Assembly: GCA_903899375.1 (NCBI GenBank)
Contig: CAIUIT010000104.1
Location: 1-40,357, forward strand
DNA from: an uncultured Actinomycetes bacterium
GTDB lineage: Bacteria > Actinomycetota > Actinomycetes > Nanopelagicales > Nanopelagicaceae
Direction of reading: 5' to 3'
Length of the DNA: 40,357 bases
Under the pieces are notes generated by a model. The model searched no databases. It saw nothing but the letters and a program-made list of their open reading frames with translations, and was not told where the DNA came from. The translations under genes and the position numbers were made by a program. Below are positions 2,397-34,842 of the stretch, in pieces (positions within the stretch are counted from its first letter, which is position 1; each line of letters starts with the position of its first letter).

Positions 2397-3482
2397 ATGA
2401 CGCCCGATCTAACTTTTGGTGGATCGGGCGATCTTGTTTTACAGGTAACTAATTATCTCGCGCGCCTAAATTTGTTAAAAGCAGAGAGTTCAATTTTTAA
2501 CGCCAGCGTTGAATCAGCAGTTAAAGAGTTTCAGCAATCTCGAGGATTAACCGTTACTGGGGTTGTAGATGCCATCACGCTGCGCGCCCTCGACGAGGCG
2601 AGATGGAAATTAGGGGACCGAGTTCTCTCCCTCACTTCACCTCCAATGCGCGGGGACGATGTCGCTGCCCTGCAATCTCAACTGAGTGAGATGGGATTTA
2701 ATTGCGGCCGGGTTGATGGCATATTTGGTATCGAGAGTGAAGTTGCAGTGATGGATTTCCAGAAATCAGTCGGTGCAAAGGTTGATGGTCGATGTGGGCC
2801 TGCAACCATCATGTCGATGTTGCGGTTAAAGAAGATCGTCTCTGGTGGGGCTCCGATCCAACTCCGAGATGCGGCGATACGGGCCGAACGCGGACCGGCA
2901 CTCGCTGGAAAAGTGATTGTTATTGATCCATCTGATTCACCTGATATTTTCGATCTTTCACAGCGCCTGGAAGGACGATTGATTGCCCTTGGGGTAAATG
3001 TATTTCTAACTCGCACCCTCTCTTCCGCCCCGCGTGACTCTGAACGTATTGAGATTGCAAATGCCTCTAACGCTGATCTGGTCATATCTATGCATCAAGA
3101 TCGTCATATAAACGAGAAAGCTCATGGAGTTGCCACTTATTACTATGGCAGCGACTCTCATGGGGTGCACTCAATAGTAGGCGAACGTTTTGCCACGCTG
3201 GCACAGCGAGAAATTTGCGCTCGGACCGATCTCCTTAACTGTCGAATTCATGCAAAAACCTGGGATCTGCTCCGTCTAACTAAATCTCCTACCGTTCGTA
3301 TTGAATTGGGTTATGAAACCAACCCTGGGGATGCCAAAAGAGTTTCCGACCCCGCCTTCCGTGAAACAGTCGTAGAAGCTTTGATGGTTGCAATTCAACG
3401 CCTTTACTTAAGCGCTGAGAACGATGCAAAGACGGGAACTCTGAAGATCTCTGATCTGCGCAGGGCTGGTCTGCGTAAATAA
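2397..3482 (+). CDS. cwlM: CwlM-like N-acetylmuramoyl-L-alanine amidase homologue, probably catalytically degenerate
   Basis: The 361-residue protein has two peptidoglycan-binding (PG_binding_1) repeats at about residues 10-65 and 82-142, then an Amidase_3 fold at about 172-343. There is no signal peptide or membrane segment, so it should be cytoplasmic like mycobacterial CwlM, which regulates MurA rather than cutting peptidoglycan. The usual DPGHGG motif reads DPSDSP at 177-182, so the first zinc-ligand histidine is replaced by D180. I also see no glutamate at the expected second-ligand position. The later His (H233, SMHQ) and Glu (E303, IELGYETNP) remain. The position after trxA and near parB matches the mycobacterial cwlM locus. 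The ATG at 2397 is the only reasonable start, because an in-frame TAA lies at 2385. Regulatory function is inferred from homology and context. Confidence 0.85.
   Translation: MTPDLTFGGSGDLVLQVTNYLARLNLLKAESSIFNASVESAVKEFQQSRGLTVTGVVDAITLRALDEARWKLGDRVLSLTSPPMRGDDVAALQSQLSEMGFNCGRVDGIFGIESEVAVMDFQKSVGAKVDGRCGPATIMSMLRLKKIVSGGAPIQLRDAAIRAERGPALAGKVIVIDPSDSPDIFDLSQRLEGRLIALGVNVFLTRTLSSAPRDSERIEIANASNADLVISMHQDRHINEKAHGVATYYYGSDSHGVHSIVGERFATLAQREICARTDLLNCRIHAKTWDLLRLTKSPTVRIELGYETNPGDAKRVSDPAFRETVVEALMVAIQRLYLSAENDAKTGTLKISDLRRAGLRK
2401..2430 (+). promoter_or_regulatory. GC-rich hairpin at the cwlM start codon
   Basis: A perfect 9-bp inverted repeat, CGCCCGATC (2401-2409) and GATCGGGCG (2422-2430), encloses a 12-base loop. 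It begins two bases after the cwlM ATG and is followed by ATCTTGTTTT. The stem is 7/9 G-C. As RNA it could limit cwlM translation or act as an intrinsic-terminator-like structure behind trxA. The structure is seen in the sequence; the role is inference. Confidence 0.5.
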
Positions 3483-3523
3483 AGGCGACCCATACCCCTT
3501 CATTAGTGTGGCAGAATTGTCTA

Positions 3524-4777
3524 ATGTCTAATGAGGTAAAGCGTTTTCGCACAGGTGAAGATCAACAACTCACGCAGCGCTTTGCCCACCGCGCCGAGTT
3601 GATGCAGGCCAGCGAGATTCGAGCCTTATTTGCCGTCGCCTCCCGCCCCGAGATCGTCTCTCTTGCTGGTGGTATGCCAAACCTCTCAGCTCTCCCTATG
3701 GAGATGATGGCTGAAGTCGTTGAAAAACTCATTAAAGAGAATGGCAATGAAGCCCTGCAGTATGGAAGCGGCCAGGGCCACCCGAAGTTACGCGAACAGA
3801 TCTGCGATGTCATGGCTTTAGAAGGTATCCGGGCGCATCCAGATGACATCATTGTTACGACTGGTTCACAACAAGCCCTTGATCTCATCTCTCGTATCTT
3901 TATTAATCCCGGCGATGTGGTTTTGGTGGAAGCGCCATCCTATGTTGGAGCGCTAGGAACCTTTAAGCAATATGAAGCCAATGTTGTTCATGTGCAGATG
4001 GATGACGAAGGAATGATCCCAGAAGCGCTTCGCGCAGCGATTGAAGCAGTGCGTAAATCTGGTCAAGAGATTAAATTCCTATACCTCATCCCTAATTACC
4101 AAAATCCTGCCGGGGTACTTCTGCCAGCAGAGCGACGCACAGAGATACTTGAAATCTGCGCCGCAGAAAAAATCTTTATAGTTGAAGATAATCCTTATGG
4201 CCTTCTCGGTTTCGACAAACCATCGCCTAATGCGATGCGCGCACAAGATTCTGAGAATGTTATCTACCTTGGTTCCTTCTCAAAGACGATTGCTCCCGGT
4301 TTCCGAGTTGGGTGGGCTTTGGTCCCTCAAGCGTTGAAGGAGAAGTTGGTGATCGCGGCAGAAAGTTCGATTCTCTGTCCATCTAATTTCACACAGTTAT
4401 CTATTAGCGGTTATTTGGCAGACCAACCTTGGCGCGATCAAATCGCTTCATTTTGTAAACTTTATAAGATCCGTCGCGATGCGATGCTAGAAAGTTTGGA
4501 AGAGTATTTCCCAGAGGGCGCTATTTGGACTAAGCCGCACGGAGGTTTTTATATTTGGGTGACCCTTCCCCCTGAAATTGATACGACCGCCCTGATGCCA
4601 AAGGCGATCGCCGCAAAGGTTGCCTATGTTCCCGGTACCGCTTTCTATGCGGATGGTTTTGGAAGTTGGTCTATGCGCCTGGCGTACTGCTACCCCACCC
4701 CAGAGAGAATTCGTGAAGGTGTAAAAGCTTTGGGTGGAGTTATACGCACCGAGATGGAAAACCGCGCACTTATCTAA
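3524..4777 (+). CDS. PLP-dependent aminotransferase, class I/II (MocR/2-aminoadipate-type)
   Basis: This is a fold-type I pyridoxal-phosphate aminotransferase of 417 residues. The schiff-base lysine is K254 in GSFSKTIAPGFRVGW. The substrate-anchoring region LAGGMPN, the PLP-phosphate region TTGSQQALDL and the aspartate in EDNPYG are all recognisable. This pattern is closest to the 2-aminoadipate/aromatic (LysN, MocR-catalytic-domain) subgroup, but there is no N-terminal DNA-binding domain, so it is an enzyme and not a regulator. The amino-acid substrate cannot be told from sequence. The ATG at 3524 is preferred over an in-frame GTG at 3506; neither has a strong ribosome binding site. Its stop overlaps the convergent parB stop by 8 bases. 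Confidence 0.85.
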   Translation: MSNEVKRFRTGEDQQLTQRFAHRAELMQASEIRALFAVASRPEIVSLAGGMPNLSALPMEMMAEVVEKLIKENGNEALQYGSGQGHPKLREQICDVMALEGIRAHPDDIIVTTGSQQALDLISRIFINPGDVVLVEAPSYVGALGTFKQYEANVVHVQMDDEGMIPEALRAAIEAVRKSGQEIKFLYLIPNYQNPAGVLLPAERRTEILEICAAEKIFIVEDNPYGLLGFDKPSPNAMRAQDSENVIYLGSFSKTIAPGFRVGWALVPQALKEKLVIAAESSILCPSNFTQLSISGYLADQPWRDQIASFCKLYKIRRDAMLESLEEYFPEGAIWTKPHGGFYIWVTLPPEIDTTALMPKAIAAKVAYVPGTAFYADGFGSWSMRLAYCYPTPERIREGVKALGGVIRTEMENRALI

Positions 4778-5648
4778 GCAGCTGGGTAATTCGTTTTAAA
4801 TCCTCTTCATCCGCGAACTCGATGGTTATCTTGCCTTTTTCTCTCCCTAACTCGATAGTGACGCGAGTATCGAGTTTATTGCCAAGTTGATCACCCAACT
4901 CTTTTAAGTATGGGTTTGGCGATGTATGGCGCTTTACTTTCTCGCCCTTCCTTTTTCCATCGCTTGTCGCAACAATCTCTTCTACCGCGCGAACACTCAA
5001 GCCTTCGGCAACTATCCGGTTTGCCAGCGTTTCGATCTCATGTGCATCAGTTAATGAGAGCAGCGCACGCGCATGTCCTGCGGAGAGAATTCCTATTGCC
5101 ACTCTTCTTTGCACAGAAGCTGGAAGGTTGAGAAGACGTAAAGTATTAGTAATAACTGGTCTAGATTTCCCAACTTTCACCGCAAGCTCTTCATGGGTGT
5201 AGCCAAAATCATTAAGTAAGTTTTGATAAGCGGCGGCTTCTTCAAGGGGATTGAGTTCGCTACGGTGAATATTTTCTAATAAAGCTTCACGTAACATCTC
5301 ATTATCTGTTGATGCACGAAGAATGACGGGAATAGTTTTTAGCCCAGCTATTTTGGAGGCGCGTAATCGTCGCTCACCCATAATCAATTCGTAACGACCA
5401 GCACCAATCTCGCGAACAACTGGGGGCTGCATAACGCCAACTTCTTTGATCGATGCCGCTAATTCATGTAGGGCGCGTTCATCAAAATAGGTACGTGGTT
5501 GTTTGCTATTTGGTTGGACTGCGTTGATATCAACTTCAAGAGCAGTACCTGCAATAACTCCAGAATTGTTTACAACATCACCAATAGTTGTTGTGGGGAT
5601 GAGTGCATCTAAACCGCGACCCAAACCTCCCTTGCGCACTGCACTCAT
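4770..5648 (-). CDS. parB: Chromosome partitioning protein ParB
   Basis: ParB is the CTP-dependent clamp that loads at parS sites near oriC and, with ParA, segregates the origins. The 292-residue protein begins with the usual basic tail (KGGLGRGLDALIP). It carries the CTP-binding/arginine-patch motif GERRLRAS (residues 91-98) and a helix-turn-helix around the segment HEELAVKVGKSRPVI. A C-terminal dimerisation region follows. The ATG overlaps the parA stop as ATGA, so the two are translationally coupled. Two matching parS sites lie 0.9 and 1.5 kb upstream, within parA and rsmG. Confidence 0.97.
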   Translation of the reverse strand: MSAVRKGGLGRGLDALIPTTTIGDVVNNSGVIAGTALEVDINAVQPNSKQPRTYFDERALHELAASIKEVGVMQPPVVREIGAGRYELIMGERRLRASKIAGLKTIPVILRASTDNEMLREALLENIHRSELNPLEEAAAYQNLLNDFGYTHEELAVKVGKSRPVITNTLRLLNLPASVQRRVAIGILSAGHARALLSLTDAHEIETLANRIVAEGLSVRAVEEIVATSDGKRKGEKVKRHTSPNPYLKELGDQLGNKLDTRVTIELGREKGKITIEFADEEDLKRITQLLR

Positions 5649-6523
5649 GCTGCAGATCCTCTCCGTGCTATTTCACGCGCAGCCCCCATATATGCAATTG
5701 CACCAGGGGAAGCTGCGTCGTATGTCATGACTGTTTGATTAAAAGATGGCGCTTCAGAAACTCGTACTGCGCGAGGTATTGGAATATCAATTAATTCATT
5801 GGGAAAGTGACGCCTAACATCATCTGCAACATCGTTCGCTAATCGAGTGCGTGAATCGAACATCGTGAGGAGAATTGTGCTGACGCGAACTAATGGATTA
5901 AGGGCTCTTTGAATCTTTCCCAGCGTCTCCATAAGTAAGGAGATTCCCTCCAGCGAGTAGTACTCGCATTGAATAGGAACGAGGACTTCTTCTGCTGCGG
6001 TTAGCGCGTTGATAGTCAGCAAGCCCAAGCTTGGCGGGCAATCGATAATTACATAATCCAGACGATCTCCGCGCGCATCTCGCTCGCCGAGATATTTCAA
6101 GAGTGCGCCTTTAAGAATACTTTCGCGTGCAACAAATGTAACTAGGGCGATCTCGGCGCCTGCGAGCTCGCGATTTGCTGGAGCGCATTCCAAGCTAGGA
6201 AAACCTGCAACTTTTTGGATTGTTTGGGAGAGATCAACTTCATCAACCAAGACTTCATACATCCCAGGAGTTCTATTGCGGTCGACCCCAAGGGCGGTAC
6301 AGGCATTTCCTTGTGGATCCAAATCGATAACGAGGACCTTTAGCCCTCCCATCGCCATTGCCGCCGCTAGATTTACTGCAGAGGTGGTCTTTCCCACTCC
6401 GCCTTTTTGGTTGGCCACGGTGAAGATCCGAGTTTTGATCGGTTGTGGCATAGGCTCTTTGAGGCGACGAACTCCAATGAGCTTCTTCTCCTCCACCTTT
6501 GGTGTTTCACGTGAATCACTCAT
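5645..6523 (-). CDS. parA: Chromosome partitioning ATPase ParA
   Basis: ParA/Soj is a Walker-type ATPase that binds the nucleoid and pulls ParB-parS complexes. The 292-residue protein has the deviant Walker A motif KGGVGKTT at residues 40-47, the VIDLDPQGN motif, and the Walker B-like IDCPPSLGLLT. An N-terminal extension of about 30 residues precedes the ATPase core. The first codons, encoding SDSRETP, also form a parS site (6503-6518). The stop overlaps the parB start by 4 bases. It is part of the - strand operon that runs away from oriC. Confidence 0.97.
   Translation of the reverse strand: MSDSRETPKVEEKKLIGVRRLKEPMPQPIKTRIFTVANQKGGVGKTTSAVNLAAAMAMGGLKVLVIDLDPQGNACTALGVDRNRTPGMYEVLVDEVDLSQTIQKVAGFPSLECAPANRELAGAEIALVTFVARESILKGALLKYLGERDARGDRLDYVIIDCPPSLGLLTINALTAAEEVLVPIQCEYYSLEGISLLMETLGKIQRALNPLVRVSTILLTMFDSRTRLANDVADDVRRHFPNELIDIPIPRAVRVSEAPSFNQTVMTYDAASPGAIAYMGAAREIARRGSAA
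6503..6518. promoter_or_regulatory. parS site inside parA
   Basis: The 16 bases TGTTTCACGTGAATCA match the parS consensus TGTTTCACGTGAAACA at 15 of 16 positions. The site lies within codons of the ParA N-terminus (the residues SDSRET on the - strand), which constrains both the protein and the DNA site. ParB encoded next door is the expected ligand. Confidence 0.9.
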
Positions 6524-25108: not shown

Positions 25109-27367
25109 GTGTCTACACCCGTGCACGTCACAGGAACCAATCTGATTTACGTATTTATCGTCCTTGGAGTCTCCCTTCTAGCCCTTGCCATCGCCTACGG
25201 TCTGCGTGCTCAGGTCTTGGCTCAATCAGACGGAACAGAAAAGATGAAGGAGATTGCCGCCGCCGTTCAAGAGGGCGCAGCTGCATATCTCAATCGCCAA
25301 TTTAAGACTCTCTCAGCATTCGTGGGAATCGTCTTTGTACTCCTTTTCGCCCTACCCGGGCACACCGATATCCGCATTGGACGCTCGGTCTTCTTCCTAC
25401 TCGGAGCGCTCTTCAGTGCTGGCGTTGGGTACAACGGCATGTGGCTCGCAGTTCGCGCTAACGTCCGCGTGGCTGAAGCAGCCAGACAGAAGTCGGCAGC
25501 GAATGCTGTGAAGATCGCCTTCCGTACCGGCGGCGTTGTAGGAATGACGACTGTTGGACTGGGACTTCTCGGAGCTTCACTTGTGGTCATCATCTATCGC
25601 GAAAACGCTCCCGATGTACTTGAAGGCTTTGGTTTTGGTGCTGCAATGCTCGCCATGTTTATGCGTGTTGGTGGCGGAATCTTTACTAAGGCTGCCGATG
25701 TTGGAGCAGACCTTGTCGGCAAAGTTGAAAAGAATATTCCTGAAGATGATCCTCGTAATGCGGCAACAATTGCTGACAACGTCGGTGACAACGTCGGTGA
25801 CTGCGCCGGAATGGCAGCGGACCTCTTTGAATCCTATGCGGTTACATTGGTTGCAGCGCTTATTCTTGGTAAGGCCGGATTCGGTGATGCAGGCTTGATC
25901 TATCCATTGATCGTTCCTGCAATTGGAATCGTGACTGCAATTATCGGAATCTTTATCACTCGCTTGCGTCCAACAGATCGATCTGCAATGCAGGCAATTA
26001 ATCGCTCATTCTTCTTATCAGCAATTATTTCTGCAGTGCTCGTTGGTTTTGCAACCTTCACATACCTACCTGGATCCATGAAGCTACTTGTTGGTTTAGA
26101 TCCTTCTCATGCAGCAAGTAACGTTAATCCACGTATCTTGACCTTTGGTGCAGTTCTCATCGGAATCGTTCTAGCTGCGGCTATTCAGCTCCTTACTGGT
26201 TTCTTCACAGAGATTGGTCGACGTCCAGTTAATGATGTCGCTGCATCGTCGAATACTGGCTCTGCAACCGTAATCTTGGCTGGTATTGCAATTGGTTTTG
26301 AGTCTGCAGTGTATTCAGCTCTACTAATCGCTTCGGCGGTATTCGGCGCCTTTATCTTGGGACATGGTTCGATAGTTCTCAGTCTCTTTGCAATTGCGCT
26401 CGCTGGAACAGGTTTGTTAACCACCGTCGGAGTAATTGTTGCGATGGATACCTTTGGGCCAATCTCTGATAACGCACAAGGCATTGCTGAAATGTCGGGC
26501 GATGTCGAGGGCGAAGGCGGACAGATTCTCTCCTCACTAGATGCAGTCGGTAATACTACAAAAGCAATTACCAAAGGCATCGCAATCGCTACTGCTGTAC
26601 TTGCCGCAACCGCACTCTTCGGGGCATTTACAAATGCGATTCTCAAAGCAGTGAGCGACGCTGGTAAGACGGCCGCTAATCTCAATCTGCAATTCCAAGG
26701 GATTTTAGATATTGCTAACCCACGTAACTTGGTTGGTCTTATCATCGGCGCATCAGTTGTATTCCTGTTCTCAGGTTTAGCAATTAATGCGGTTTCTCGC
26801 GCAGCGGGTGCAGTTGTTGTTGAAGTTCGCGAGCAGTTCCGGTTACATCCTGGAATTATGGATGGAACCGAGAAGCCAGAATATGGACGCGTTGTAGACA
26901 TTTGCACACGCGATTCCTTGCGTGAACTTGTTGCACCTGGCCTACTCGCTGTTATGGCTCCCATTGCAGTTGGCTTCGGCCTTGGCGTAGGTGCACTGGG
27001 TGCTTACCTCGCTGGTGCAATCGGTACCGGAACCCTGATGGCAGTCTTCCTCGCAAACTCAGGTGGTGCGTGGGATAACGCAAAGAAGATGGTTGAAGAT
27101 GGACATCACGGCGGCAAGGGATCTGATTCTCATCATGCCACCATCGTTGGTGACACCGTAGGAGATCCATTTAAAGATACCGCTGGTCCTGCAATCAACC
27201 CTCTGCTCAAGGTTATGAACTTAGTTGCACTGTTGATTACACCAGCGATCGTTTCCTTCTCACTTGGTGGTCACAAGGTCGAGAGTGCACTCATCGCTCT
27301 AGTCGCTGTTCTTGTTATCATCTACGCCCTAGTGCGCAACAGGAGAGCTTCTACCGCAATCGCATAA
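25109..27367 (+). CDS. hppA: Membrane-bound proton-translocating pyrophosphatase, K+-independent type
   Basis: H+-PPase couples hydrolysis of pyrophosphate to proton export across the cytoplasmic membrane. The 752-residue, multi-helix protein carries the catalytic motif DNVGDNVGDCAGMAADLFESY region and a C-terminal motif with GGAWDNAKK and GDTVGDPFKDT. The position that distinguishes subfamilies reads GNTTKA with K485; lysine here is typical of K+-independent enzymes, alanine of K+-dependent ones. The GTG start at 25109 follows GAGGAG. Streptomyces carries hppA in the same neighbourhood as topA. Confidence 0.97.
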   Translation: MSTPVHVTGTNLIYVFIVLGVSLLALAIAYGLRAQVLAQSDGTEKMKEIAAAVQEGAAAYLNRQFKTLSAFVGIVFVLLFALPGHTDIRIGRSVFFLLGALFSAGVGYNGMWLAVRANVRVAEAARQKSAANAVKIAFRTGGVVGMTTVGLGLLGASLVVIIYRENAPDVLEGFGFGAAMLAMFMRVGGGIFTKAADVGADLVGKVEKNIPEDDPRNAATIADNVGDNVGDCAGMAADLFESYAVTLVAALILGKAGFGDAGLIYPLIVPAIGIVTAIIGIFITRLRPTDRSAMQAINRSFFLSAIISAVLVGFATFTYLPGSMKLLVGLDPSHAASNVNPRILTFGAVLIGIVLAAAIQLLTGFFTEIGRRPVNDVAASSNTGSATVILAGIAIGFESAVYSALLIASAVFGAFILGHGSIVLSLFAIALAGTGLLTTVGVIVAMDTFGPISDNAQGIAEMSGDVEGEGGQILSSLDAVGNTTKAITKGIAIATAVLAATALFGAFTNAILKAVSDAGKTAANLNLQFQGILDIANPRNLVGLIIGASVVFLFSGLAINAVSRAAGAVVVEVREQFRLHPGIMDGTEKPEYGRVVDICTRDSLRELVAPGLLAVMAPIAVGFGLGVGALGAYLAGAIGTGTLMAVFLANSGGAWDNAKKMVEDGHHGGKGSDSHHATIVGDTVGDPFKDTAGPAINPLLKVMNLVALLITPAIVSFSLGGHKVESALIALVAVLVIIYALVRNRRASTAIA

Positions 27368-27407
27368 CGTGATTGAAGTCGCTTGCCGTTCGGCCTTTTA
27401 GGAGTTG

Positions 27408-30170
27408 ATGAATTTGGGTATCAAGCTTGTGATCGTGGAGTCCCCTGCAAAGGCGCGCAAAATTGGCGCCTTTCTAGGGGATGACTACGTAGTCGAAGCC
27501 TCTGTTGGTCATATTCGTGATCTACCGCAACGTGCCGCTGATATTCCTGCTGAATATAAGAAGATTGCATGGGCTAAAGAGGGTGTAAATATCGCGGAGG
27601 ATTTTGCTCCGCTCTATGTCATTAACCCAGATAAGCGTGCCAAGGTGAATGAACTTAAAGCGCTCATGAAGGGAGCCGATGAACTGATTCTGGCTACCGA
27701 TGAGGACCGCGAGGGCGAAGCGATTGCTTGGCATTTGATAGAAGTATTGCGTCCAAAGATTCCTATTAGCCGCATGGTCTTTCATGAGATCACAAAAGAG
27801 GCGATCCAAGAGGCCGCTAAAAATACCCGCGATCTGGATTATCGCTTGGTAGATGCCCAAGAAACTCGTCGAGTGCTCGATCGTTTATACGGCTATCGCC
27901 TCTCTCCCGTTTTATGGAAGAAAGTCATGCCACGGATCAGCGCTGGCCGTGTGCAATCAGTGGCGACACGTTTGATCGTTGAACGCGAACGTGAGCGAAT
28001 GGCATTTATTTCTTCTGCATGGTGGGATCTCAAAGCAGAGACGGATCAGAATTTCACCGCTCGCCTCCTTTCACTCGACGGTAAGCGCGTGGCCACAACA
28101 AATGACTTTGACGAAACCGGTGGACTTAAAGAGAAATCAATTGGCAACATCCTCTTATTGGAAGAAACCTCTGCAAATGCATTAACTCAGAGCTTGGTTG
28201 GATCGAAACTCACGGTAATAAGTACCGAAGAATCACCTCGCACTGAACGTCCAAAGGCGCCGTTCACAACTTCAACAATGCAGCAAGATGCCGGCTCGCG
28301 TTTAGGTTGGGGTGCGCAAATAACAATGCGTATCGCGCAACGACTCTATGAAAATGGCTACATCACCTATATGCGAACAGATTCGGTAACGCTTTCGCAA
28401 TCGGCAATTTCTACGGCTCGGGCCCAGGCCACCTCTTTGTACGGCAAGGAATACATTCCACCAACTCCACGGGTATATGAAGGTAAGACGAAGAATGCCC
28501 AAGAAGCGCATGAAGCGATCCGTCCCGCTGGAGAAACCTTTAAAACTCCCGGTGAGCTAGCCCCAGAGCTCAGTCGCGACGAATTTGCACTTTATGATTT
28601 GATTTGGAAGCGAACAATTGCATCACAGATGTCCGATGCCAAGAAGATGCAGATGCGCGTTGACTTCGAAGTTTCTACAAATGTTGGTGCAAACGCAATC
28701 TTCCGCGCCAACGGTTCTGTTCTCACTTTTCCTGGTTTCTTAGCAGCATACGAAGATGTGCTGGAAGAGGGTGCGCCAGAGGCCGATGATGAATCCAAGC
28801 GTCTGCCCCCAATGGCTATCGGTGACATTGTTGGCGTCAAGCAATATTCCTATGAAGGTCACGAAACTAAGCCCCCCGCACGCTATACAGAACCATCTCT
28901 GGTTAAGAAATTGGAAGAGTTGGGAATTGGTCGCCCTTCAACTTTTGCTTCAATCATGAGCACCATTCAGGACCGCGGTTACGTTGCCAAACGTGGTCGA
29001 GCACTCGTCCCTACATTTTTGGCATTTAGCGTTACTGGTTTATTGGAACAACACTTTTCTAAGTTAGTCGACTACGAATTCACTGCATCGATGGAAGAGG
29101 ATCTCGACAAGATCGCAAATGGTGAAGCCGATCGGGTTGAGTGGTTAACGCGTTTCTTCTATGGCCATGATGATGTACCTGGCCTAGAAGCGCTGGCCTC
29201 CGATCTCGGCGCGATTGATGCGCAACAGATCAACACGATGAAGATGGGTCAAGATATTGAAATTCGAGTGGGTCGCTATGGGGCATATATCCAGCAAGGC
29301 GAAGGTGATAATCGCAAGTTTGCCAACATCCCAGAGAACATGGCCCCCGATGAACTGACGCTTGATGTGGCAATTGAATTGTTGGCCAAACCATCGGGTG
29401 AACGTGAATTGGGAGTTGAGCCCCTCACCGGATATCCACTTGTAGCAAAGTCGGGTCGCTTTGGTCCATACGTCACTCAAATCTTTCCTGAACCAGAATT
29501 GGTTGTTGATAAGAAGACCGGCGAACTCAAGAAACCTCGCAAGAAGAAGGATGCTCCGAAACCTAAGACGGCATCACTCCTTTCCACAATGACGCTAGAT
29601 ACGATCACGATGGATGATGCTCTCAAGTTGATGTCTCTGCCAAGAACGCTTGGTGAATATGAAGATGAAACGATCACCGTTCAGAACGGTCGCTACGGAC
29701 CTTACTTAACAAAGGGAAGTGATTCTCGAACCCTTACCTCTGAAGATCAACTCTTTGACATCTCTCTGGATGAAGCAATCGCAATTTATAAAGAGCCAAA
29801 GGTGCGCCGCCGGGGTGTTGCAAAGCCACCAGTTAAAGATTTAGGTGTTGATCCTGCATCCCAGCGCCCGGTTCTCGTTAAAGATGGCCGCTTCGGTCTT
29901 TACGTCACCGATGGAGAGACCAACGCAACGCTGCGTCGTGGGGATACCGTCGAATTCCTTACCCTTGAACGTGGCATGGAGTTATTGGCTGGGCGACGGG
30001 CTTGGGAGGCTGAAAATGGTGGCGCAACTCGTGTAAAGAAGAAGTCAACGCGAGCAAAGAAGAGCGCTCCCACCCTGACCGCTAAGACGGTAAAAGCCAC
30101 TGGAGCACCTAAAACCAAGAAGAAAGCCGCCTCTGGCAAGGGCAAAGCTACTTCTGTCGCTAGCCTCTAG
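27408..30170 (+). CDS. topA: DNA topoisomerase I (type IA)
   Basis: TopA relaxes negative supercoils. The TOPRIM domain begins LVIVESPAKARKIG and contains DEDREGEAIAWH. The catalytic tyrosine is Y321 in GYITYMRTDS. There are no zinc fingers. The C-terminal half instead has four Topo_C-type repeats (GRYGAYIQQ, GRFGPYVTQ, GRYGPYLTKG, GRFGLYVTDG) and a Lys/Ala-rich tail, the actinobacterial arrangement used for processivity. ATG 27408 follows GGAG closely; TTG 27405 or TTG 27414 are alternatives. It lies 10 bases before the MFS-tmk gene. Confidence 0.97.
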   Translation: MNLGIKLVIVESPAKARKIGAFLGDDYVVEASVGHIRDLPQRAADIPAEYKKIAWAKEGVNIAEDFAPLYVINPDKRAKVNELKALMKGADELILATDEDREGEAIAWHLIEVLRPKIPISRMVFHEITKEAIQEAAKNTRDLDYRLVDAQETRRVLDRLYGYRLSPVLWKKVMPRISAGRVQSVATRLIVERERERMAFISSAWWDLKAETDQNFTARLLSLDGKRVATTNDFDETGGLKEKSIGNILLLEETSANALTQSLVGSKLTVISTEESPRTERPKAPFTTSTMQQDAGSRLGWGAQITMRIAQRLYENGYITYMRTDSVTLSQSAISTARAQATSLYGKEYIPPTPRVYEGKTKNAQEAHEAIRPAGETFKTPGELAPELSRDEFALYDLIWKRTIASQMSDAKKMQMRVDFEVSTNVGANAIFRANGSVLTFPGFLAAYEDVLEEGAPEADDESKRLPPMAIGDIVGVKQYSYEGHETKPPARYTEPSLVKKLEELGIGRPSTFASIMSTIQDRGYVAKRGRALVPTFLAFSVTGLLEQHFSKLVDYEFTASMEEDLDKIANGEADRVEWLTRFFYGHDDVPGLEALASDLGAIDAQQINTMKMGQDIEIRVGRYGAYIQQGEGDNRKFANIPENMAPDELTLDVAIELLAKPSGERELGVEPLTGYPLVAKSGRFGPYVTQIFPEPELVVDKKTGELKKPRKKKDAPKPKTASLLSTMTLDTITMDDALKLMSLPRTLGEYEDETITVQNGRYGPYLTKGSDSRTLTSEDQLFDISLDEAIAIYKEPKVRRRGVAKPPVKDLGVDPASQRPVLVKDGRFGLYVTDGETNATLRRGDTVEFLTLERGMELLAGRRAWEAENGGATRVKKKSTRAKKSAPTLTAKTVKATGAPKTKKKAASGKGKATSVASL

Positions 30171-30179
30171 GCTTAACCC

Positions 30180-32213
30180 ATGTCTCAAGCGCTGCCATAC
30201 CCATCGGCTCCGGCGCAATCGGAGTCTCGTAGCGTTCTTGCTATCCCGGCCTTCCGCAAGCTCTGGAAGAGCATGGCCTTCTCCTCCTTCGGAGATTGGC
30301 TCGGTCTCTTGGCCACTACTGCCCTCGCTCAAGAACTAGCAGGCGGAAACTACAAGAAAGCCAACTTTGCTATCGCGGGTGTCTTTATCGTACGGCTATT
30401 GCCAGCAGTTCTCTTAGGACCAATAGCCGGAGTTATCGCCGATCGCTTTGACCGCCGTCGCTTGATGATCGTGTGCGACATTTTACGATTCGGTTTCTAC
30501 CTCTCGATTCCCATCGTTCACAATTACATCTGGCTCTATACCGCAACGGTGATCGTTGAATCCATCACGCTTTTCTGGTCGCCGGCCAAAGAGGCCTCTG
30601 TTCCTAATCTCGTGCCGAAGGACAAGCTCGAATCCGCAAATCAAATGACCCTGTTAGCGAGTTATGGAAGCGCTCCCGTTGCTGCTTTGATGTTTGCAAT
30701 TCTGGCCGGTGTCGCAGCAACTCTGACGTCGATTTCTAATGCACGATATGCCTCTACGGCTGACTTGGCCCTTTATATCGATGCAATTTCATTTTTATAT
30801 ACCGCATGGGTGGTTTATCAATTACAGACTATTCCTAAAGGCGCCGCTTCAAAGAGCGCAGTGAATGACAATATTGGAAAGTCTCTTATTGATGGATTTA
30901 AATTTGTATCGCAATCAAAGGTTATTAGTGGATTGATTCTCGGAATGCTTGGAGCCTTTTTCGCAGCAGGAGCTGTAATTGGTCTTGCTCGAACTTTTGT
31001 GGGCGACCTCAACGCTGGAGATGCCGCGTACGGAATTCTCTTCGGTTCTGTATTCACAGGTCTTGCCCTGGGAATTTGGCTCGGACCAAAAATATTCGGT
31101 CAATTCTCTAGACGTCGCATCTTTGGTATCTCACTCACCATCTCTTCAGCATTTTTGGTAGTTCTATCGCTCGTCTCTAACTTGGTTCTGGCAATGTTGA
31201 TAACGATCTTTCTTGGAGCTTTCGCCGGCTTGTCGTGGGTCACTGGATTCACCATGCTCGGTATGGAAGTGGAAGACGAGGTCCGCGGTCGCATTTTTGC
31301 CTTCGTGCAATCACTTATTCGCATCTCTTTAGTTCTCGTTCTTGCAATCGCGCCGGTAATTGCTGCATCTATCGGCCGTCATCAATTCACCGTAAATAAC
31401 ATTCACCTTCATTACAGTGGTGCTTCATTCACGATGTTTGGTGCTGGAATTATTGGTCTAGTTGTCGGGATATTCTCATATAAGCGTATGAAAGACCGCC
31501 CCAATGTTTCTTTCTTCTCGGACATCATGGCAGCTTTCCGCGGAGAGCTAGGCGGAATCACAGGCCAGGCGCATAAGGGGATCTTCATTGCATTTGAAGG
31601 TGGCGAAGGTTCTGGAAAATCCACGCAGGCCGAGATGCTCAAGAAGTATCTCGTGAGCGTTGGGGAAAACGTTATCGTCACTAGAGAGCCTGGTGGAACG
31701 GTTCTTGGGAAGCAGTTACGAAAGATTTTGCTGGACCCAAAGACGGGGGCCATCTCCCCTCGCGCTGAAGCGCTCTTATATGCAGCCGATCGCGCCAATC
31801 ACGTCTTTTCGCTCATAGAACCTGCCCTTGAACGCGGCGATGTCGTTATTACAGATCGATATTTGGATTCATCTATTGCCTATCAAGGTGCCGGAAGAAT
31901 CTTGCTTCCAAGCGAAGTCGCTCGAATTTCACGCTGGGCGACGGAATCACTAACACCAAATCTAACTTTCATTTTGGATCTCCCAGCTGAAATTGGTTTG
32001 AGCAGACTTGATAGCATCGATCGGTTAGAACAAGAACCGCTCGCTTTTCACGAACGAGTACGCCGTGAATTTCTTAACTTGGCCAATATCGACCCAGATC
32101 GGTATTTTGTAGTTGATGCAACCCAGAGCGTAGAAGCGATAGCTCAGCAGATTCACGAGCGAGTGTCTACGATTCCTCTCTTGAAGATCAATCGCGAAAA
32201 TACCAAGAAGTAG
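30180..32213 (+). CDS. tmk: MFS transporter-thymidylate kinase fusion
   Basis: This 677-residue protein joins two enzymes. Residues about 20-440 form a 10-12 helix MFS-like membrane domain (AGVIADRFDRRRLMIVCD and a second loop with GRIFAFVQS). Residues about 468-677 are a complete thymidylate kinase: P-loop GGEGSGKST (474-482), TREPGGT, the DRY motif in ITDRYLDSSIAYQGAG, and a lid segment RLDSIDRLEQE. The kinase makes dTDP for DNA synthesis; the role of the membrane part is unknown. Similar fusions are known in Streptomyces, also between topA and holB. No internal start with a good ribosome binding site was noticed before the kinase. Confidence 0.95.
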   Translation: MSQALPYPSAPAQSESRSVLAIPAFRKLWKSMAFSSFGDWLGLLATTALAQELAGGNYKKANFAIAGVFIVRLLPAVLLGPIAGVIADRFDRRRLMIVCDILRFGFYLSIPIVHNYIWLYTATVIVESITLFWSPAKEASVPNLVPKDKLESANQMTLLASYGSAPVAALMFAILAGVAATLTSISNARYASTADLALYIDAISFLYTAWVVYQLQTIPKGAASKSAVNDNIGKSLIDGFKFVSQSKVISGLILGMLGAFFAAGAVIGLARTFVGDLNAGDAAYGILFGSVFTGLALGIWLGPKIFGQFSRRRIFGISLTISSAFLVVLSLVSNLVLAMLITIFLGAFAGLSWVTGFTMLGMEVEDEVRGRIFAFVQSLIRISLVLVLAIAPVIAASIGRHQFTVNNIHLHYSGASFTMFGAGIIGLVVGIFSYKRMKDRPNVSFFSDIMAAFRGELGGITGQAHKGIFIAFEGGEGSGKSTQAEMLKKYLVSVGENVIVTREPGGTVLGKQLRKILLDPKTGAISPRAEALLYAADRANHVFSLIEPALERGDVVITDRYLDSSIAYQGAGRILLPSEVARISRWATESLTPNLTFILDLPAEIGLSRLDSIDRLEQEPLAFHERVRREFLNLANIDPDRYFVVDATQSVEAIAQQIHERVSTIPLLKINRENTKK

Positions 32214-32215
32214 TC

Positions 32216-33364
32216 ATGTCGGTCTTTGATTCACTTATCGATCAGAATGAGACGGTTGCAATTCTGAAAGAGGCGACCATCGCCGCCAAGAATAATGAGG
32301 ATGAATCACAAAACATGACTCATGCTTGGCTCTTTACCGGGCCACCAGGTTCGGGTCGAAGTAATACCGCTTTAGCATTTGCAGCAGCCCTGCTCTGTCC
32401 CGACTCGGGATGTAATCACTGCGTAAATTGTGCTACGGCTCTTAAAGGAACACATGCAGATGTAGAGCTGATAAAAACCGAAGGTCTCTCTATTAAGATC
32501 GATGAAGTTCGAGATCTAATTACCAGAGCCTCATGGAGCCCAGCCGTTGCTCAATATCGCGTAGTGATTATTGAAGATGCTGATCGCTTGACCGAATCGG
32601 CAGCGAATGCGTTACTCAAAGCAATTGAAGAGCCGGGTTTACGAACGGTCTGGCTACTTTGCGCGCCAACTCTTACTGACGTGCTTCCTACTATTCGCTC
32701 GCGTACCAGAAACTTAATATTGCGCACCCCATCTATCGCGGCCGTTACTAAACTTTTGGAGGGCGAGCTAATTTCACATTCCGTCGCCGAACTTTCGGCG
32801 CGCGCCTCCCAAGGACATATTGGGCGAGCCCGCTATTTAGCCAATGACCCAGAAGCGCGGACTCGACGTACGGATATTCTGAAACTCCCTCTGACTATTA
32901 CCGATATCGCCTCAGCATTTAAATGTGCCCAATTATTGGTCGATGCCGCCAAACGGGAAGCCGAGACGGATGCCGAGAAGAGGAACGACCTTGAGAGTTC
33001 TGCCTTAAAAGAAGCTTGGGGCCAACAGGGAAGTCGAATGGTTCAGGGTGGGGCTAAGGCGATCAAAGAGTTGGAGAAAGATCAAAAGTCCAGACAAACT
33101 AGAATGGTGCGAGATTACTTAGATCGAGCACTGTTAGATATTGCGACCTTCTATCGTGACACCTTACTTGTGCAAAGTGGGATGAAATCTGAAGACTCTC
33201 TTATCAATAGCGATATGCAGCGCGAGATTGCTATCGTAGCCAGTAATACGACATCGGAAATAACTTTAAGGAAGCTAGAGGCAATCATGAACACGCGCAC
33301 CAATCTATCGCGCAACGCTGCTCCGCTACTTGCTGTGGAGGCGTTAATGGTGCAACTACGATGA
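32216..33364 (+). CDS. holB: DNA polymerase III delta prime subunit
   Basis: This clamp-loader subunit is 382 residues long. It has an AAA+ fold with GPPGSGRS at residues 42-49, in which arginine R48 replaces the Walker A lysine, fitting a subunit that need not hydrolyse ATP. The zinc module uses C61, C66, C69 and C72. The segments VVIIEDADRLTESAANALLKAIEEP and LPTIRSRTRNL are diagnostic. It follows the tmk fusion by 2 bases and overlaps the secreted hydrolase gene by 4 bases, a conserved actinobacterial cluster. Confidence 0.93.
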   Translation: MSVFDSLIDQNETVAILKEATIAAKNNEDESQNMTHAWLFTGPPGSGRSNTALAFAAALLCPDSGCNHCVNCATALKGTHADVELIKTEGLSIKIDEVRDLITRASWSPAVAQYRVVIIEDADRLTESAANALLKAIEEPGLRTVWLLCAPTLTDVLPTIRSRTRNLILRTPSIAAVTKLLEGELISHSVAELSARASQGHIGRARYLANDPEARTRRTDILKLPLTITDIASAFKCAQLLVDAAKREAETDAEKRNDLESSALKEAWGQQGSRMVQGGAKAIKELEKDQKSRQTRMVRDYLDRALLDIATFYRDTLLVQSGMKSEDSLINSDMQREIAIVASNTTSEITLRKLEAIMNTRTNLSRNAAPLLAVEALMVQLR

Positions 33365-34842
33365 GACGCACTATTGCGATATTTGCAGCTTTCTCTGCAG
33401 CTCTCTCCAGCTTTGTTTCCCCCGCCTTCGCCAGTCAAACGTGGACTTTGGCAACATTGCAGTCACAGACTCTTAAGTGGACTCCGTGCAATAGCGGCTT
33501 TGAATGCGCTCAATTCAAAGTACCTGTGGATTACAACCATATCAAGAGCGACACATTCACTTTGCAAGTGATTAAACATGTGGCGAATATCCCGTCCCAG
33601 CGCCTCGGCTCCCTCATTATGAATCCTGGGGGGCCAGGTGGTTCTGGGATCCAATATGTAGAGGCCGCTGACTCTATTGTTTCAATGAAGATTGAAGACG
33701 TTTATGATTTAATCGGGTTTGATCCACGCGGAGTTAATCTCTCACAGCCCATTCGTTGCTTAACGGACCCACAAGAGGACTATTTCCTTGGTGGAGATGG
33801 CTCTGTGCAGACTCCAGCTGATCTAGCTGCTGCAATCTCTTCTTCGAAATTGATGGCCTCTGCATGTGCGATGTCGGCAGGAAATAAGTTGGGTCACTAC
33901 TCAACACTAGAAACCGCTCGAGATATGGAACTTTTGCGGATACTTCTCAAGTCGCCAAAGCTAAATTACATCGGTAAGTCATATGGAACTTTCCTTGGAA
34001 CCCTTTATGCAGCTCTATATCCAAAGACGACCGGTCTCATGGTGTTGGATGGTGCCGTCGACCCAAACATTCCTGTGCGCGATCAAAATATTGCACAGGC
34101 GGTCGGTTTCGATACCGCATTGAAATCTTTTGTAGCAGCAAATCCGACCTTCTCAATAAAGCAAATTCAAACATTCTTACAGACTTCGCGAACCAAACCA
34201 TTAGTGGATCGCAATCATCGCCAGCTCTCCGAGTCGCTGGTCGTAACTGGAATTGCCGCTTCGCTGTACGACCCGACAAATGGATGGCCCTTATTGGCAA
34301 AGGCGTTAACAGAAGCGTTTACGAATAAGAATCCCTTCGGTTTCTTTCTGCTCTCTGACTCTTATAACGAACGCGATAAAAATGGCCATTATGTATCTAA
34401 TCAAACCGATATTGCTGAAGTCGTTTCTTGCCTGGATTTTAAAGATCCGCGCACATTGAGTCAGATACAGGCTGATGCAAAGAACTTTGCCGCCGCCGCG
34501 CCCATCTTCGGGCCCTACCTCGCATTTTCAGGGCTGCCTTGTCTCTACTGGCAGGCCAAGCCTGTTGCGGCCCCAGTTCTTACCCACCTAACCACTAACC
34601 CGCTCTTAGTTATTGGCACTACCCGTGATCCTGCCACGCCCTACCAGTGGGCCAAATCGCTACACAAAGCGCTGCTCAACAGCACTCTGATCACCTTAAA
34701 TGGGGATGGTCATACCGGCGCCAACCGGGGCAGTGCCTGCGTAGATAAGGCCATGAATCACTATCTGCTGACCGGGAAGCTTCCCGTCCATGACATTACC
34801 TGCGATACCGACGCCGCCCTCTCCGCAGCGATCACGGCCTAA
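33361..34842 (+). CDS. Secreted alpha/beta-hydrolase peptidase (TAP/S33 family)
   Basis: The 493-residue protein has a Sec signal peptide (MRRT then a hydrophobic run ending SPAFA-SQ) and an alpha/beta-hydrolase fold with a TAP-like C-terminal domain. The nucleophile is S207 in GKSYGTFLG, with D423 (GTTRDPATP) and H451 (GDGHTGA) completing the triad. The oxyanion region MNPGGPGGSG is typical of tripeptidyl/prolyl aminopeptidases of family S33. It is likely exported to release short peptides for uptake. A homologous gene follows holB in Streptomyces. The exact specificity is unknown. Confidence 0.93.
   Translation: MRRTIAIFAAFSAALSSFVSPAFASQTWTLATLQSQTLKWTPCNSGFECAQFKVPVDYNHIKSDTFTLQVIKHVANIPSQRLGSLIMNPGGPGGSGIQYVEAADSIVSMKIEDVYDLIGFDPRGVNLSQPIRCLTDPQEDYFLGGDGSVQTPADLAAAISSSKLMASACAMSAGNKLGHYSTLETARDMELLRILLKSPKLNYIGKSYGTFLGTLYAALYPKTTGLMVLDGAVDPNIPVRDQNIAQAVGFDTALKSFVAANPTFSIKQIQTFLQTSRTKPLVDRNHRQLSESLVVTGIAASLYDPTNGWPLLAKALTEAFTNKNPFGFFLLSDSYNERDKNGHYVSNQTDIAEVVSCLDFKDPRTLSQIQADAKNFAAAAPIFGPYLAFSGLPCLYWQAKPVAAPVLTHLTTNPLLVIGTTRDPATPYQWAKSLHKALLNSTLITLNGDGHTGANRGSACVDKAMNHYLLTGKLPVHDITCDTDAALSAAITA

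Follow-up and report, generated by a model that had tools for sequence, protein, structure and literature searches.

In the window, by which we mean the whole 40,357-nucleotide stretch of DNA analysed here, a thymidylate kinase (Tmk) is encoded in one reading frame with a membrane protein of the major facilitator superfamily (MFS). We conclude that this fusion is real, ancient and apparently little-studied. In many Actinomycetota, Streptomyces included, a membrane transporter ends in an enzyme that supplies dTTP synthesis. The phylum shows every stage: separate neighbours, the fused gene, the fused gene with a relaxed transporter, the kinase alone and the transporter with its kinase encoded elsewhere. 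As all of these stages are present, the role of the transporter in the supply of DNA precursors is directly testable. The distribution and the natural variants are the strong part of the evidence. Below, G denotes a genome, L a locus and f a family, coded families being used for much of the phylum.

The fusion gene

The features of the window that are used in the text are listed below.

25109..27367, + strand: membrane H+ pyrophosphatase, upstream of topA (Pfam)
27405..30170, + strand: topA, DNA topoisomerase I, upstream neighbour (Pfam and NCBIfam)
30180..32213, + strand: MFS-Tmk fusion gene, 677 aa, stop included (open reading frame and domain matches)
30237..31499, + strand: MFS half, approximately aa 20-440, with 12 membrane helices according to the helix list of the model
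30294..30299, + strand: codons for the family-conserved D39 and W40 of helix 1 (alignment rows)
31500..31574, + strand: linker, aa 441-465
31575..32153, + strand: thymidylate kinase domain, aa 466-658
31596..31625, + strand: P-loop of the kinase, aa 473-482
32216..33364, + strand: holB, DNA polymerase III delta prime subunit, downstream neighbour (Pfam and NCBIfam)
33361..34842, + strand: alpha/beta hydrolase, overlapping holB by 4 bases (Pfam)

The frame runs uninterrupted from the ATG at 30180 to the stop at 32213 and encodes 677 aa. The same was true for all window-genus copies not cut by a contig end (n = 16, the window's included), each of which forms one frame of 677-700 aa; the one TAG that was flagged, in G007, lies at the end of its frame. 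Fused copies are also present in named cultured genera. Together, the 16 one-frame copies and the copies in cultured genera exclude chance as well as a slip in assembly, and the fusion is confirmed. A first-pass annotation of the sequence had described a complete Tmk fused to a multi-helix MFS-like domain, with a P-loop at residues 474-482. The single 677-aa frame and its Pfam and NCBIfam matches bear this out, and our P-loop agrees to one residue. The same annotation had called the genome otherwise minimal. The genome is indeed small (assembly of 1,382,823 bases in 138 contigs, completeness 90.66), but the fusion is not confined to genomes of small size.

The kinase half matches Pfam Thymidylate_kin (PF02223) at aa 472-658 over profile positions 1-185 of 185 with 171.4 bits (cut-off 27), and NCBIfam TIGR00041 (dTMP kinase) with 168.6 bits against a cut-off of 83.25. 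It is the only PF02223 match in the window genome assembly, in which thymidine kinase and ThyX are each matched once. Across the 50 aligned fused rows E473, G474, G477, G479, K480 and T482 of the P-loop are invariant, as are D559-R560 and R615. The half aligns along its length with solved kinases, the best-scoring solved chain being 5x98, which we take to come from Thermus. Judged by the curated cut-offs, the full-length domain, the P-loop and the conserved blocks, the C-terminal half is predicted to be a dTMP kinase. Extensions of ~160 to 540 aa follow the kinase at L081, L082, L093, L094, L101, L104 and Streptomyces loci; nearly all of them have no predicted membrane helix.

The N-terminal half belongs to the MFS, as judged from its 12-helix fold and its Pfam match (MFS_3 at aa 20-377, 75.4 bits, cut-off 27; MFS_1, 57.2 bits, cut-off 33.4). 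Its sequence matches are to efflux or flippase-type families. It scored 122.1 and 124 bits with TIGR00900 (DHA3), below the cut-off of 319.6, and it is not a DHA3 member as modelled by that profile; an E value of 0.01 or better with TIGR00900 was reached by 48 of the 50 aligned rows, among them that of the window. The second-best NCBIfam match is PRK08633 (LplT-Aas fused) with 76.6 and 78.5 bits against a cut-off of 1221. The C-terminal half is a kinase and carries no acyltransferase domain, and the window protein is not a fused LplT-Aas acyltransferase. We found no nucleoside-transporter family among the Pfam and NCBIfam matches of the window protein nor, for the 50 rows, among the families listed (6 of 6 for Pfam, 25 of 28 for NCBIfam). 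By sequence family the MFS half does not count as a NupG nucleoside:H+ symporter.

Modelled alone, the MFS half reached a pLDDT of 88.4 and a pTM of 0.87. The model of the full protein (pLDDT 89.1, pTM 0.78) shows weak confidence at aa 457-463 of the linker. The best 50 fold matches listed by VIA-align are, judging by their titles, MFS-type transporters with Z values of 30.8-35.4, and VMAT, SPNS2, NorA, NupG, YegT and G6PT are among them. As such matches span the whole superfamily, the closest fold does not decide the substrate. Lysines and arginines number 22 in the predicted inner loops and tails compared to 4 in the outer loops, which places both ends of the MFS half, and with them the kinase, on the predicted cytoplasmic side.

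Linker and internal signals

An ATG lies 26 codons ahead of the kinase in all 16 full-length genus sequences, where it encodes a conserved methionine of the linker. None of the 40 listed sequences has a Shine-Dalgarno-like string before it. An internal start giving free kinase was rejected: no start codon preceded by a Shine-Dalgarno-like string is conserved in the window genus. Elsewhere in the stretch, single sequences do have start-like codons with such a string at scattered places; all three f24 rows carry one no more than 15 codons ahead of the kinase, each at its own position. An internal promoter was likewise rejected. Between 30100 and 32300 a single promoter-like site was found, on the opposite strand, with 1.9 expected by chance. 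Terminator-like sites number 6 in the same interval (2.6 expected), none of them in the linker. The first-pass annotation had raised the question of whether the two halves are normally separated. In the window genus we found neither a stop nor a conserved internal start between them; in other lineages they are separate genes.

Gene neighbourhood

The placement between topA and holB noted in the first pass holds for the window and is conserved in relatives. The end of topA lies 9 bases before the fusion gene and holB starts 2 bases past its stop; a gene similar to the alpha/beta hydrolase sits downstream of holB in many relatives. We took 79 loci of named genomes from at least 587 matches. Among these, topA precedes and holB follows the kinase gene on the same strand at 58 of the 71 loci counted as fused and at 7 of the 8 unfused loci. 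The remaining 14 comprise 13 loci with no match for topA and/or holB in the available DNA and L101, in which holB is on the opposite strand. At the unfused loci L160, L165 and L167 the distance between topA and tmk is ~2 to 3 kb, and in the two of these intervals that were read no MFS gene was found among the open reading frames.

Several features of this neighbourhood were seen by eye. In L201 (G110, 24-2132) the topA frame seems to carry an intein-like insertion, CLTGDTS...VVHN before STRHEI. In L199 (G003:C92, ~4950), from a member of the window genus, the end of topA lacks its lysine-rich tail and continues into genes of aminotransferase-like and methyltransferase-like type; this is either a genomic island or a chimeric contig. 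At L201 and L203, both from separate-gene families, a malate dehydrogenase-like gene separates topA from the MFS gene, and at L203 a fumarase-like gene does so as well. L208 was grouped with these two, its topA-MFS gap having been judged by size only.

Distribution of fused, separate and lost halves

At 70 of the 79 named loci at least part of the MFS half precedes the kinase, and at 8 the kinase stands alone. The last one, L150, begins inside the kinase and cannot be judged; it is counted with the 71 fused. Fused loci occur in Streptomyces and relatives, Micromonospora, relatives of Actinoplanes, Nonomuraea, relatives of Nocardiopsis, Actinomadura, Blastococcus, Frankiaceae, Catenulispora and Nitriliruptorales. 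The kinase alone was observed in Nocardioides, Microbacteriaceae, Ornithinimicrobium and acMicro. The family-wide search for the architecture that had been proposed in the first pass thus yielded fused orthologues across Actinomycetota. The age and selection that it had read from known fusions in Streptomyces agree with this spread, with the constraint described below and with the conserved topA-holB setting.

We also searched 119 genomes of the phylum with a profile of the MFS half. A match of at least 370 bits was found in 40 genomes, 35 of which have an open frame of at least 600 aa, the length of a fusion; the kinase was judged by this length only, and one of the 35, G155, has its kinase in a different frame. 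In G155, as in G090, one contig carries both the MFS match and the kinase but in separate frames, and the match of G090 is interrupted by two stops. In G060 the two are on different contigs and the match contains one stop. These three exceptions may be real splits or assembly errors.

From the profile search we fetched 13 MFS loci in which the frame is too short for a fusion or the kinase lies apart. At 12 of the 13 a separate tmk on the same strand lies within ~1.2 kb of the MFS gene or overlaps it and is followed by holB, and topA or its end was found at 10 of these 12. The other one, L213 (G046 of f29, 2961-5668), has an MFS gene that overlaps holB by four bases and its tmk on another contig. 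The MFS gene with the kinase on another contig was observed in all three f29 genomes, one neighbourhood of which (G046) was read. A further locus, L219, which was fetched as a second copy of the MFS gene and taken out of the second copies before counting, has the order topA-MFS-tmk-holB with tmk starting at the end of the MFS gene.

Within the window genus 19 of the 24 other genomes have a PF02223 match, with a fusion frame of 677-700 aa where contig ends allow. The other five (G003, G005, G012, G014 and G022) have no match. They also have no clear holB orthologue (three show 31-32% matches in frames of 570-585 aa and two show none). As for topA, G005 and G012 have a cut copy, G003 has it joined to other genes, and in G014 and G022 it was not found. 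G005 retains the first 200 residues of the fusion. As the neighbourhood is missing too, we read these five as assembly gaps and rejected a loss of tmk inside the genus. Another candidate, G119, in which the kinase seemed lost from a still fused MFS, was dropped because part of the gene reads as masked. No relative was found on viral contigs with the patterns used, and none of 292 matching phage records covers 80% of the query. Only 1 of 185 plasmid records does so, and this is an 11.85 Mb Nonomuraea record in which the gene is unannotated.

Constraint and conserved residues

In the window genus dS is near saturation and we therefore preferred dN ratios to dN/dS. The median dN across 120 pairs of the 16 full-length genus sequences (four cut copies excluded) came to 0.187 in the MFS half and 0.209 in the kinase, with a median ratio of 0.90. 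For 33 of the 37 named Streptomyces loci (528 pairs) we obtained 0.207 and 0.062, a ratio of 3.16. The median MFS/kinase ratio was 3.89 in Actinomadura (3 rows), 1.58 in a Nocardiopsis-Streptosporangium set (5), 1.29 in Micromonosporaceae (7), 0.99 in f24 (9) and 0.74 for L081, L093 and L094 (3). By a crude count that gives 8 for the window protein, all 37 Streptomyces frames have 10-12 hydrophobic segments before the kinase.

Eight residues of the MFS half (D39, W40, R72, E127, K137, N154, Y162 and R381) are each kept in 38-43 of 43 rows drawn from the window genus, other Actinomycetes, f24 and Nitriliruptorales-like loci. In 18 other MFS proteins of the same genome set D39 occurs in 10 and N154 in 8, and R72, E127, Y162 and R381 are rare. 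The 13 stand-alone MFS copies of the locus hold the residue set if K/R and D/E swaps are allowed, with two exceptions at Y162. In the model D39, R72, R103, E127 and R381 lie at least 10 residues from either end of their helices, and K137 and N154 are nearer the inside. Streptomycetaceae (14 rows) retain D39, R72 and R381; E127, N154 and motif A are mostly gone. The three Actinomadura rows have lost D39, R72, E127, K137 and R381 in all or most cases. The MFS half of Streptomyces and Actinomadura thus looks relaxed although it is still fused. The decay of the MFS half in relatives, which the first-pass annotation had thought might speak against a function, is found in these two groups and not in the window genus.

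Trees and origin

We counted five changes of state in a kinase tree built from 83 chosen rows, of which 60 are fused and 23 are not; two of these changes are forced by well-supported branches. A first MFS tree of the 60 fused rows and 18 other MFS proteins, computed with a simple model and showing long branches, did not keep the fused rows together and gave two changes. For a second MFS tree we left out Streptomycetaceae, Actinomadura and nine far MFS proteins and used a mixture model on 52 rows. In this tree the MFS halves of fused genes group in a single clade with the stand-alone MFS of the locus, apart from nine other MFS proteins (support 95); one origin for the fusion was not rejected (p-AU 0.386). 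As the trees have no inferred root, gain and loss of the fusion are not separable from the counts alone. Given the families with separate neighbours, the joining of neighbours followed by loss of the MFS half in some lineages is the simplest story.

Second copies of the MFS gene

A second and unlinked copy of this MFS type is present in several genomes. We fetched 12 from the higher-scoring matches listed, leaving out those of G128, G082 and lower-scoring rows; 11 remain after the removal of L219, which is a locus copy. At 8 of the 11 loci (L214, L215 and L220-L225, from f37, f51, four genomes of f32, and f29) a gene for a PlsY-like acyltransferase adjoins the MFS gene, with one small open reading frame in between at L220. 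The other three (f43, f58) adjoin a gene read from its sequence as clpB. All four PlsY-like proteins that were scanned scored above the Pfam G3P_acyltransf cut-off and none above that of TIGR00023; the remaining four calls rest on similarity to a scanned one. A DegV-family gene is present at three second-copy loci. Searches with two PlsY-like queries and one DegV query gave no hit in the available DNA of the 92 kinase-linked loci and in the window, where diverged genes may be missed with such distant queries.

Ten of the second copies (L223 excluded) form one clade with support 100. At each of its positions the residue set recurs in all or most of these copies, with R in place of K137 in all ten; the copy of L221 departs at two positions. 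Added to the tree, the second copies were placed between two groups of locus copies, and one clade of locus copies was still not rejected (p-AU 0.30). We regard the PlsY-linked clade as a candidate lipid transporter. Its position beside PlsY-like acyltransferase genes suggests a lysophospholipid-like substrate, and a lipid-like phosphorylated substrate for this MFS type is a reasoned guess. The guess crosses from a related clade to the locus clade and the transfer may fail.

Proposed function and alternatives

Fusion, orthology, gene order, constraint and predicted topology were all computed. On this basis our main reading is that a single chain carries two working activities and that the kinase is tethered at the cytoplasmic face of the membrane. 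We put its probability at a little below one half (roughly 0.46). The N-terminal half would be an MFS transporter of 12 helices whose two ends lie in the cytoplasm, and a short flexible linker would keep the C-terminal half, the only thymidylate kinase detected in the genome, at the cytoplasmic face. The most likely origin would be the in-frame joining of neighbours in an old topA-MFS-tmk-holB cluster. In the window lineage the transporter appears to be under selection equal to that on the kinase and to have kept its charged residues in mid-membrane, which makes the transport of something very probable. R72, E127 and R381 seem largely special to this MFS type; D39 is found in about half of the compared MFS proteins. 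Our best guess for the substrate class would be a phosphate-bearing amphiphile, e.g. a lysophospholipid, and the benefit that we infer for the tether would be a fixed ratio of both activities and the production of dTDP at the membrane. A membrane localisation of the dTTP supply, one of the roles suggested in the first pass, is possible. In general no tight coupling of transporter and kinase is needed, since each half survives at the locus without the other (the kinase in Nocardioides and Microbacteriaceae, the transporter in f29). The more specific version, in which a transporter of the lysophospholipid type is hard-wired to the sole Tmk so that lipid handling and DNA-precursor supply are co-made, co-placed and perhaps co-regulated, strikes us as improbable; if true, it would join membrane-lipid handling to DNA-precursor supply in a large part of a phylum.

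The fusion could also be passive, i.e. two operon neighbours merged, are hard to split again and give each other no help. That the halves are separate neighbours in other lineages, that each can be missing and that tmk remains flanked by topA and holB whether or not the MFS gene is present all fit this account. However, the separate genes remain neighbours even in far lineages and the fused form lasts in many families. The MFS half also stays in frame after the loss of its charged residues, though kinase-only forms are viable elsewhere. We consider a passive fusion somewhat unlikely. A more pronounced doubt applies to an MFS half that no longer transports and just holds the kinase at the membrane. 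The Streptomyces dN (3.2 times that of the kinase), the residues mostly lost in Streptomycetaceae (E127, motif A, N154) and the five lost in Actinomadura with the frame still open would suit such an anchor; in the window genus, however, the MFS half has 0.9 times the dN of the kinase and retains its conserved residues, and we think an anchor alone improbable.

Two further alternatives give the transporter a substrate close to that of the kinase. The MFS half could move dTMP or a related nucleotide, for salvage import or the export of an excess, with the fused kinase acting on it. This would need no thymidine kinase, and the conserved basic residues R72, R103 and R381 near mid-membrane would be in keeping with it, as would the sugar-phosphate transporter G6PT among the fold matches, although many unrelated MFS proteins are found there too. 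The efflux or flippase-type sequence matches, the second copies that adjoin PlsY-like and not nucleotide genes, and the f29 genomes with their kinase on another contig argue against a deoxynucleotide transporter, and we rate it as unlikely. The uptake of thymidine or another nucleoside coupled to phosphorylation, which the first-pass annotation had offered, fared worst. A thymidine kinase match is present in 23 of 25 window-genus genomes, the window's included, and NupG and YegT are among the fold matches. But those fold matches cover the whole superfamily, no nucleoside-transporter family was listed, and Tmk phosphorylates dTMP and not thymidine. Of ten fused or part-fused genomes of the same class outside the genus (G030-G037, G039, G040) nine have no match to PF00265 (thymidine kinase, Tdk), the exception being G032. 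Among five unfused genomes of the class (G025-G029) only G026 has one, so Tdk is generally absent from the class, irrespective of the fusion. As Tmk needs dTMP and Tdk is mostly absent, the import of thymidine into this kinase is not the general function, and we regard coupled nucleoside uptake as very improbable.

Relation to known systems

We found no paper on an MFS-Tmk fusion in the open-licence literature as covered by titles, abstract starts and passages, subscription papers being mostly outside it. SCO3542 is presumably the Streptomyces coelicolor member of the fusion. A table of PMC3897704 gives SCO3542 as a putative thymidine kinase. Passages of PMC3711429 present thymidylate kinase as a translational-coupling cluster, and in those of PMC3924187, which treat Streptomyces transporters, the word thymidylate does not occur.

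Ordinary dTMP kinases are soluble, single-domain proteins of ~200 aa. The kinase half shares with them the full domain, the P-loop and the other conserved blocks but trails a 12-helix transporter. For the MFS half, the best family matches come from the DHA3 / MFS_3 branch (TIGR00900, EntS, MefA), from which it differs in having its own conserved residues and scores under the TIGR00900 cut-off. With the nucleoside:H+ symporters NupG and YegT it has the MFS fold in common, though the identity in fold alignments is 10-14%. A comparable pairing is that of LplT-Aas, which passages of PMC11416262 describe as a lysophospholipid flippase/acyltransferase complex that is fused in some bacteria. There, too, an MFS transporter and an enzyme on the cytoplasmic face are encoded by neighbours or by one open reading frame; the partner in LplT-Aas is an acyltransferase, whereas here it is a nucleotide kinase.
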